From: Desulfurobacterium pacificum
Lineage (GTDB): Bacteria > Aquificota > Aquificia > Desulfurobacteriales > Desulfurobacteriaceae
Direction: 5' to 3'
NCBI RefSeq assembly: GCF_900182835.1
Contig: NZ_FXUB01000001.1
Span: 62,001-126,000 of the forward strand
DNA length: 64,000 bases
The notes under the pieces are model-generated. The model did not search any database, was not told the origin of the DNA, and was given only the letters and a program-made list of their open reading frames with translations. This document shows positions 15,856-54,636 of the stretch, piece after piece. Numbering within the stretch: position 1 is the stretch's first letter; every line of letters begins with the position of its first letter. Both the position numbers and the translations under genes were made by a program.

Positions 15856-16437
15856 ATGCTGAAAAAGTTTTTAGTGATTTTCTTTTTGCTGTTTTTTACT
15901 GTTCCTGCTCGTGCGAATTTTGAGGAGTTTGTTAAGTCTATTGAAAACATTAGGAGCGCTGTTGTTAAATTCAGGCAGATTACGAAAATTCCCGTTGCCG
16001 GCGACGAAGTATCTCTTTATGAAGGAGTTATTTATTACAAAAAGCCTTTAAAGTTTCGCTGGCAATATATTGAAGGGAGCGAAATCTACATTATTTCTAA
16101 CGGAAAATTTGTGGAAACTGTTTTTCCCGACGATGGCGATTGTCAGTTGTTTAGGTTGACGAAAGAAAGTGACCTATTTCCGCTTATATCTCTATTTGAG
16201 AACCCTGAAGTGTTTCGTAAATACTATAAAGTTATAGCTAAGGGAGATGTTGCAGTTGCAGAGCCAAAGTTTAAAGGTTCTTTTTTCAAAAGGATAGTTT
16301 TTTACTTTAACGGCAAAAAACTTTTGAAAATTAAAGTCGTGCAGGAGGACGGCACGGAGGAAACTTACCTAATTACGGCATTTAAGAAAAACATTCCTTT
16401 AAAGGACAACCTGTTTAAGTTAAAAAGGTGCAGTTGA
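15856..16437 (+). CDS. lolA: LolA-like outer-membrane lipoprotein carrier
   Basis: A secreted 193-residue protein with a signal peptide ending PARA (about residues 1-20). The mature part begins NFEEFVKSIENI and has the LolA pattern: a VVKFRQI strand, EGVIYYKKPLKFRWQY, then EIYIISNGKFVETVFPDD. This matches the half-barrel that carries lipoproteins across the periplasm. A GTG three bases earlier is possible, but AGAGG is better spaced for the ATG. It is divergent from rsmD. Two lipoprotein genes with Cys lipoboxes lie elsewhere in the window. LolB and LolCDE are not identifiable here unless the 9.7 kb ABC genes serve that role. Confidence 0.82.
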   Translation: MLKKFLVIFFLLFFTVPARANFEEFVKSIENIRSAVVKFRQITKIPVAGDEVSLYEGVIYYKKPLKFRWQYIEGSEIYIISNGKFVETVFPDDGDCQLFRLTKESDLFPLISLFENPEVFRKYYKVIAKGDVAVAEPKFKGSFFKRIVFYFNGKKLLKIKVVQEDGTEETYLITAFKKNIPLKDNLFKLKRCS

Positions 16438-29269: not shown

Positions 29270-29285
29270 ATTAGAGGAGGTGCAC

Positions 29286-29900
29286 ATGGCTCTCGTAGGA
29301 CAAAAAGCTCCTGAATTTGAGCTCCAGGCATACGACCCGGTAAAAGACGCTTACACAACAGTAAAGCTTTCTGATTACGTTCCAAACAGCGAAGGTAAGT
29401 TTCTAATTCTTTGCTTCTATCCAGCAGACTTTACCTTTGTCTGACCAACGGAACTGGCTGCGGTCGCAGCTAAACACGAAGAAATTAAGAAAAGAGGTGC
29501 AGAAGTTCTTGCAATCTCCACAGACACCGTTTTCAGCCACCAGATTTTCTGTAAGGTAGAACCTTTGATGAAGGACGTTAAGTTCCTCTTGGCAGCAGAC
29601 CCAACAGGTGAAGTGTCTAAGAAATACGGTGTTTACATTGAAGGAGCTGGAATTGCAAGAAGAGGAAGATTCATCATCAACCCTGACGGTGAGATTGTTG
29701 CTGAAGAAGTTCTTAATCCTCCAGTTGGAAGAAACGTAAACGAACTTTTAAGACAGCTTGATGCATGGAAATACGTTTACGAACATCCAGATGAAGCCTG
29801 CCCTGCAAACTGGAGACCTGGCAAGAAAACTCTCAAGCCTGGTCCTGACATTGCAGGTAGAGTTGGTGAAGTTGTTACTATTGAAGATATTCTCTCTTAA
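29286..29900 (+). CDS. Selenocysteine-containing peroxiredoxin (TGA codon 53 read as Sec)
   Basis: Reduces hydrogen peroxide and organic peroxides in the cytosol. Read through the in-frame TGA at 29442-29444, the frame gives a 204-residue AhpC/Prx-type protein. The active-site stretch reads DFTFV-U53-PTE, where relatives have DFTFVCPTE, so Sec replaces the peroxidatic Cys exactly. The resolving Cys of the C-terminal DEACPANW motif is kept, as are the ADPTGEVSKKYGV and RRGRFIINPDG segments. The frame is intact on both sides, codon use is even and a hairpin follows the TGA. This argues against a pseudogene. Start ATG 29286 follows GAGGAGGTG. A caller that stops at TGA would report only a C-terminal fragment from 29565. 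Confidence 0.92.
29455..29472 (+). promoter_or_regulatory. Bacterial SECIS-like hairpin in the peroxiredoxin gene
   Basis: A 7-bp stem (TGGCTGC with GCAGCTA, one G-U pair) closes a GGTC loop at 29462-29465. The loop begins 18 bases after the TGA. As I recall it, the E. coli fdhF SECIS also presents GGUC in its loop at nearly the same distance. It should recruit SelB. Confidence 0.82.
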
Positions 29901-53693: not shown

Positions 53694-54636
53694 ATTTTCT
53701 CTTATTTCATTCCTTTCTCGTAAACTGTCCATTTTTCAACCTGAAGTGTTGATTGGTATTGGTGATGATACTGCTGTAGTGAAGAATGGTAATAAATACT
53801 CTTTTTATACCACCGATGTTTTAGTTGAAAACGTTCATTTTTTGGACAATTGGAAAAGCAACGTTCCTGACTTTTATTACTTTTTAGGAAGAAAACTGAT
53901 AACCATCTCTGCAAGCGATGTAGCTTCTATGGGTGGAATGCCCGTTTATGGATTAATTAACCTTTTAATTCCAGAAGTATATGATTTAAAAGAGTTGGAA
54001 GAGTTTTATGAAGGAGTTTCCGAGTTATGTAATGAGCTAAGGATTTCTGTTATTGGAGGTGATACTTCAAAGAGTTCTGCTAAAACTTTTTCTTTTTTCT
54101 TAATAGGAGAAGGAAAAAAGTTTATGCTACGTTCTAACGCTAAGCCTGGAGATTTGGTTGCTGTTACGGGAACTTTGGGTGATAGTGCTGCTGGTTTGGA
54201 ACAATTGTTGAAAAAGGAAATAAAGGTTTTTCCGTTAGTTGAAAGGTTTTTAAACCCAACTTCAAGAGTTAGAGAAGGTGTAGAGGTTTCAAATTTGGGT
54301 GTTATAACGTGTACTGATGTTAGTGATAGTCTTGTTTTTAATTTATACACGATAGCTGAATCTTCAGGGATTGCTATCAAGGTGGATAGTAAGAACATTC
54401 CCCTCTCTCCCCACCTCCTTACATACACTACCGGTAGCCGTGAAAAAGCTTTAAGGTATGCCCTTTACGGTGGGGAAGATTATGAATTAATAGTTACTTT
54501 TGAAGAATCACTTCTTAGTGGTGTGGAATCTTTGGGTTTTACGGTGATTGGTGAAGTTGTTGAGGGAGAAGGCGTTTTTGTTGACAATAAAAAGGTTGAA
54601 AAGAAAGGGTACAACCACTTTGGAGGTGAACGTTGA
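53680..54636 (+). CDS. thiL: Thiamine-monophosphate kinase
   Basis: Phosphorylates thiamine monophosphate to the active cofactor. The 318-residue PurM-like protein has LIGIGDDTAVV, YTTDVLVENVHFL, VIGGDTSKSS, GDLVAVTGTLGDSAAGL and GGEDYELIVTF. The family also contains selenophosphate synthetase, but the conserved N-terminal Cys/Sec and Gly-rich loop of SelD are missing, so it is ThiL. The end overlaps uppP by four bases. Confidence 0.94.
   Translation: MKLDEFSLISFLSRKLSIFQPEVLIGIGDDTAVVKNGNKYSFYTTDVLVENVHFLDNWKSNVPDFYYFLGRKLITISASDVASMGGMPVYGLINLLIPEVYDLKELEEFYEGVSELCNELRISVIGGDTSKSSAKTFSFFLIGEGKKFMLRSNAKPGDLVAVTGTLGDSAAGLEQLLKKEIKVFPLVERFLNPTSRVREGVEVSNLGVITCTDVSDSLVFNLYTIAESSGIAIKVDSKNIPLSPHLLTYTTGSREKALRYALYGGEDYELIVTFEESLLSGVESLGFTVIGEVVEGEGVFVDNKKVEKKGYNHFGGER

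Follow-up and report, generated by a model that had tools for sequence, protein, structure and literature searches.

A probable selenocysteine-containing 2-Cys peroxiredoxin of the Desulfurobacteriaceae and the RNA signal within its gene

Desulfurobacterium pacificum has a peroxiredoxin gene with an in-frame TGA codon at the peroxidatic position. On comparative sequence evidence, we are highly confident that the product of this gene is an active, selenium-containing peroxiredoxin of the typical 2-Cys kind, whose selenocysteine (Sec) would be inserted by way of SelB and a SECIS element, which would use Sec53-Cys172 chemistry, and which would have arisen inside the Desulfurobacteriaceae. The gene lies at 29286-29900 of the window (the whole stretch of DNA that we analyzed, 64,000 nucleotides) and is best understood as a functional selenoprotein gene rather than a pseudogene. 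Three marks of a bacterial selenoprotein coincide here: a conserved in-frame TGA at the redox site, a complete Sec machinery in the genome, and a SECIS under constraint. The features, all on the forward strand, are:

29275..29280, +: likely ribosome-binding site AGGAGG, 5 bases 5' of the ATG (read directly from the sequence)
29286..29900, +: putative Sec-containing typical 2-Cys peroxiredoxin (AhpC/Prx1-type), 204 amino acids with TGA53 read as Sec; stop codon TAA at 29898-29900
29442..29444, +: in-frame TGA, the presumed Sec codon 53, at the peroxidatic position
29455..29472, +: bacterial SECIS hairpin (comparative prediction), with a 7-bp stem (29455-29461 / 29466-29472) and the loop GGUC (29462-29465)
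29466..29468, +: codon 61, GCA (Ala), at the start of the hairpin's 3' arm; the Cys copies and the Sec copies of Campylobacterota have Asn here
29799..29801, +: codon of the resolving Cys, Cys172 (CPANW)

The reading frame, the protein, and the Sec machinery

The frame runs from ATG 29286 to TAA 29898-29900, and its sole interruption is the TGA at 29442-29444 (codon 53), within PADFTFV-U-PTE. An earlier note on this DNA had described such a frame with an intact resolving Cys and an intact remainder; the sequence bears this out, with Cys172 present in CPANW. Without recoding, plain ORF calling yields a 54-amino-acid frame (29280-29444) and a 111-amino-acid fragment from TTG 29565, the latter as the note had foreseen. 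A promoter and terminator scan gave matches at chance level only.

The read-through protein matches PF00578 (AhpC-TSA; 124.3 bits, E = 3.5e-36), PF08534 (Redoxin; 54.7 bits), and PF10417 (1-cysPrx_C; 34.9 bits), all above their cut-offs, which identifies it by domain content as a typical 2-Cys (AhpC/Prx1) peroxiredoxin. It also has the motif PxxxT(S)xxC/U, as P46-ADF-T50-FV-U53, and Cys172 is kept in all 18 distinct Sec proteins of the family. Among solved structures, the best match in sequence is 5zte_A, the chain of a 2-Cys peroxiredoxin, which aligns over residues 1-190. In a second solved relative, 1we0_A, the TGA codon aligns with the Cys of FVCPTE, Cys172 with the Cys of CPAKW, and Arg126 with the Arg in ADRGTF, which we take to be the active-site Arg of AhpC. 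The note's expectation of Cys at the TGA position in relatives was thus right: the solved relatives align there, and the other homologues that were read have TGC or TGT.

The genome that contains the window is in 11 contigs and is 99.92% complete. Four of its proteins, including this one, score above the cut-off for PF00578, and a homologue search found no second AhpC-type copy. A gene that seems broken, and that standard ORF calling splits in two, encodes the one AhpC-type peroxidase that we found in the genome.

The earlier note had staked its reading on the presence of SelB and tRNA-Sec. Both are in the genome, along with SelA and SelD. The tRNA-Sec scores 79.7 bits, over the cut-off, has the anticodon tca (according to ARAGORN), and lies on another contig; a tRNA scan of the window itself found none. 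SelB scores 432.5 bits (the SelB search covered 25 genomes, with G016-G021 left out), SelA scores 618.4 bits, and SelD scores 369.2 bits. SelD, which lies outside the window (G000:C4:68693-69616, minus strand; L018), has one in-frame TGA of its own, in the context VRASG-U-GAK, followed by a hairpin with a GGUC loop. It is apparently a Sec-containing selenophosphate synthetase, and it is a second example of the GGUC-hairpin signal inside the same genome. Within the window, we also noticed a weak match to the SelD family (54.3 bits, below the cut-off) at 53740-54429 (+), in a 318-amino-acid open frame; this is probably a related protein of the SelD superfamily and not SelD.

The TGA-frame hairpin scan of the window gave three candidates, the peroxiredoxin gene among them. 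Other TGA-interrupted frames in the window, at 16435 (+) and 56129 (-), were rejected: they continue for just 52 and 46 codons after the TGA and have no apparent active site. In a partial survey for selenoproteins, we asked whether formate dehydrogenase is another user of Sec in this genome, and none of the 8 matches has an internal stop. With no Cys copy found and no TGA in the formate dehydrogenase matches, the Sec peroxiredoxin may be the chief reason for keeping the machinery.

Conservation of the TGA codon and of the hairpin

We searched the read-through protein against 61 genomes, 22 of which belong to the Desulfurobacteriaceae (Desulfurobacterium and Thermovibrio). A TGA copy is present in 19 of the 22, including the window's own genome, and the other 18 copies are 85-96% identical to the window's copy. 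Conservation on this scale makes chance or sequencing error untenable. Both the Sec form and a Cys form are present in 11 genomes, the Sec form alone in 8 (including the window's genome), and the Cys form alone in 3 (G009, G014, and G021), although these absences are provisional because several of the genomes are incomplete MAGs (G014 is 91% complete and G021 is 83% complete). The Cys relatives are close, at 79-85% identity to the read-through protein, and Cys codons at the peroxidatic position are confined, within the family, to a separate clade of paralogues. The 11 of 22 genomes with both paralogues offer a natural comparison for the question of why Sec repays its cost in a peroxidase. In one of the family genomes, G004, the Sec and Cys genes are adjacent, 166 bases apart by the matches (L037:1501-2878).

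All 22 family genomes have a match to SelA, above the cut-off in 21, and the three genomes with only the Cys form are included; the Sec machinery in those three would therefore serve other proteins. In the two genomes of the sister family (f2), we found the Cys form alone and no match to SelA. The weak relatives found in G031 and G033 ('1 TGA') and in G034 ('1 TAA') were rejected as selenoproteins, as the codon behind each of these flags is the terminal stop.

The 29 TGA rows from the family reduce to 19 distinct genes. One of these (L027) was shortened by the local alignment and was excluded from both the codon count and dN/dS (n = 18), but its hairpin was kept among the 19. After the TGA, dN is 0.014-0.094 and dS is 0.78-2.5 (17 comparisons with the window's copy), which argues strongly for purifying selection downstream of the TGA. 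Gene order is kept in part: rpoD and a pseudouridine-synthase-like gene (both named from ORFs) are neighbors in four of eight relatives (L120, L056, L060, and L072), L093 has the pseudouridine-synthase-like neighbor only, and L053, L029, and L058 have neither within the stretches examined, some of which are short. The close Cys relatives and the two fragments from standard ORF calling are what would be expected if an ordinary Cys peroxiredoxin gene had a recent nonsense TGA or a Cys codon that was miscalled, but the same TGA in 19 of 22 genomes, the strong purifying selection beyond it, and the complete Sec machinery make a pseudogene or a sequencing error scarcely credible.

The hairpin that the earlier note had placed 18 bases past the TGA was found at 29455-29472. 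Its sequence is UGGCUGC-GGUC-GCAGCUA, and the loop starts at the 18th base after the TGA; the SECIS of fdhF from E. coli also has GGUC in its apical loop. Folded alone, the window's hairpin has only a modest energy advantage over shuffled sequences (z = -0.98, with 29 of 200 shuffles as stable or more so), so a single sequence is no proof of a hairpin, and the comparison among genes decides. Rfam at the gathering threshold gave no matches in the window, which is uninformative for this hairpin.

Across the 19 hairpins, 132 of 133 pair cells are paired; the exception is pair 15-30 in one sequence (L035). Five of the seven stem pairs never vary, and two-sided changes occur at the other two (columns 15-30 and 18-27), in three cells in all. 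The covariation score is 0.130 versus 0.051 for shuffled alignments (none of 500 shuffles scored as high), and slid versions of the stem pair in at most 73%. The loop is AGUU instead of GGUC in one sequence (L039). Folding energies of the 19 Sec genes range from -10.5 to -15.1 kcal/mol; the hairpin is absent from the order's Cys genes (13 distinct ones), which fold at -2.9 to -9.8 kcal/mol.

Codon usage also points to constraint on the RNA. In 18 Sec genes, there are 84 fourfold or sixfold codons with a fixed residue, and the mean frequency of the major codon is 0.61. Just 5 of the 84 (codons 58, 59, 60, 61, and 158) reach a frequency of 0.94, and four of these five are consecutive codons within the hairpin, which has a chance of about 2.6e-6 if frozen codons fall at random (uncorrected for relatedness). 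Judged by this comparative evidence, 29455-29472 forms a bacterial SECIS hairpin, constrained at the RNA level.

Given the protein families involved, we expect SelB-dependent insertion and standard peroxiredoxin chemistry. SelB and Sec-tRNA(UCA) would bind the GGUC-loop hairpin just 3' of UGA53, and the ribosome would insert Sec. Sec53 would then attack H2O2 or an organic hydroperoxide and become a selenenic acid, which Cys172 of the partner subunit would resolve to a selenenylsulfide. The selenenylsulfide would most likely be reduced by the thioredoxin system: AhpF has no match over the cut-off in the window's genome, and the best match (G000:C3:44262-45173) covers positions 209-512 of the 515 in the profile, which is the region expected of a thioredoxin reductase, so we infer thioredoxin as the reductant. 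Since the residue inserted at UGA53 is assigned from sequence, decoding as another residue, or near-cognate readthrough, might be imagined. However, the position is that of the catalytic Cys, the bases after the TGA are constrained as RNA, and tRNA-Sec(tca) and SelB are both present, and we consider an inserted residue other than Sec to be very improbable.

Residue 61 and the origin of the Sec form

Codon 61, with which the 3' arm of the hairpin begins, encodes Ala in all 18 distinct Sec proteins of the family. The same residue is Asn in all 46 of the others, which comprise 12 Cys proteins of the order, 7 Sec proteins from Campylobacterota, and 27 other Cys relatives (rows at 45-61% identity, from L073 on; Cys proteins from other families of Aquificota, L047-L052, are outside this count). 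The simplest reading is that Asn61 was given up for the sake of the hairpin. If so, residue 61 would plainly illustrate how a recoding signal can alter a protein sequence. At residue 57, every Sec protein of the two groups has Leu (18 of 18 in the family and 7 of 7 in Campylobacterota), and Ile is found in all 12 Cys proteins of the order and in 24 of the 27 other Cys relatives; Leu57 could be an effect of the hairpin or of the Sec active site. Separately, a three-residue insertion, VPN, at residues 32-34 (window 29379-29387) is present in all 18 distinct Sec proteins of the family and in none of the 46 others aligned.

The Sec peroxiredoxins of Campylobacterota (L096, L097, L099, and L104-L107) resemble those of Desulfurobacteriaceae in having TGA at the same codon and a later hairpin with the 5' arm GGCUGC. 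They differ in being just 50-54% identical, in their position in the tree, and in the predicted loop, which is CGUGAAU (seven bases) instead of GGUC. We scanned the surroundings of two of these genes (L096:3001-6263 and L097:3001-5986) and found neighbors related to selenium or sulfur. Both L096 and L097 have an aminotransferase class-V protein nearby. The one at L096 passes the cut-off for a cysteine desulfurase family, and its score for SclA (selenocysteine lyase), 316.3 bits, is below the cut-off of 525. Also nearby are a YedE-type putative selenium transporter at L096 (486.9 bits versus a cut-off of 200) and an FdhD-like protein at L097.

A maximum-likelihood tree of 71 distinct proteins (25 Sec and 46 Cys, after dropping rows with under 38% identity or under 180 residues) needs three changes between the Sec and Cys labels, at least two of which are forced by well-supported branches. 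Sec enzymes from Campylobacterota group in a single supported clade (100/100), beside a Cys protein from Nitratiruptor (89/96), and the Cys proteins of Desulfurobacteriaceae and f2 form another (98/100). The Sec proteins of Desulfurobacteriaceae sit on open forks rather than on a single branch. Placing all Sec rows in one clade is rejected (p-AU = 4.8e-5, for groups that were named after the sequences had been seen). By parting the two groups of Sec enzymes, the tree suggests separate gains. Because the forks among the Sec proteins are open, the direction of change is taken not from the tree but from Asn61 and Ile57, which the Cys forms share with outsiders. Most likely, the gene arose within Desulfurobacteriaceae from a duplicated Cys peroxiredoxin, by a change of Cys to Sec and the gain of the hairpin.

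Instead of two gains, Desulfurobacteriaceae and Campylobacterota might have had one ancient Sec-peroxiredoxin ancestor, with later reversions to Cys. Parsimony counts (three changes) cannot separate gain from loss, and Leu57 and the 5' arm GGCUGC are common to both groups. However, the rejection of an all-Sec clade, the different loops, and the retention of Asn61 by one group but not by the other all run against a single origin, which we consider unlikely.

Separate gains are also part of a broader proposal, which we offer tentatively. The catalytic Cys of an AhpC-type peroxiredoxin might have become Sec on two or more occasions, with Desulfurobacteriaceae and Campylobacterota as separate cases, and the SECIS might have been carved from the same coding stretch by different routes: a change of codon 61 from AAC to GCA together with a 4-base loop in the former, versus an AAT kept inside a 7-base loop in the latter. 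In one lineage, the RNA signal would have imposed a substitution on a residue that is otherwise invariant. This proposal also includes the idea that the Sec peroxiredoxin is perhaps the main reason for the Sec machinery in the window's genome.

Relation to known Sec peroxiredoxins

PrxU of Eubacterium acidaminophilum was reportedly described as a selenocysteine peroxiredoxin by Sohling in 2001. The best NCBIfam match of the window's protein is NF040737, which, judging by its name, is presumably the PrxU family. Like PrxU, the window's protein would be a Sec peroxiredoxin. It scores 231.8 bits and does not reach the curated cut-off of 270, so by NCBI's rule it is not an equivalog of PrxU. Furthermore, a Cys paralogue (L037:2279-2878) scores higher than the window's Sec protein, at 243.1 bits, so NF040737 does not mark Sec. 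The AhpC equivalog family, TIGR03137, gives 183.8 bits against a curated cut-off of 272, which is not reached either. The protein shares with AhpC/Prx1-type enzymes the domain family, the PxxxTxxC/U active site, and a resolving Cys in the C-terminal segment; it differs in the predicted Sec in place of the peroxidatic Cys and in coming from a genome without AhpF over the cut-off.

The earlier note's remark that Sec peroxiredoxins are known in a few anaerobes was right in kind. In its accessible text, a 2006 survey counted 12 Sec-Prx and, by its Table 1, apparently five Cys-to-Sec events in Prx (PMC1794560). For Aquificae, the same text gives two selenoprotein families and two selenoproteins, which the passage does not name (PMC1794560). 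Reviews, in the portions available, describe a TxxU motif for Sec-peroxiredoxins (PMC9312934, PMC13188914), and T50-F-V-U53 of the window's protein fits this motif; however, the available portions of the survey and the reviews do not name a peroxiredoxin from Desulfurobacteriaceae (PMC1794560, PMC9312934, PMC13188914). The tRNA-Sec of T. ammonificans and D. thermolithotrophum is already in print, according to the accessible parts of two papers (PMC4227106, PMC5441870), and the main text of the T. ammonificans genome paper, as available, has no occurrence of 'peroxiredoxin' or 'AhpC'. Our literature search was limited and included few subscription papers. Within the papers searched, nothing joins selenocysteine, peroxiredoxin, and Desulfurobacterium, or Desulfurobacteriaceae and selenoprotein, and we found no report of a Sec peroxiredoxin for Desulfurobacteriaceae, although a prior report may exist. 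Sec peroxiredoxins as such were already known; what is new is a member from Desulfurobacteriaceae with an unusually clean record of how its signal was made.
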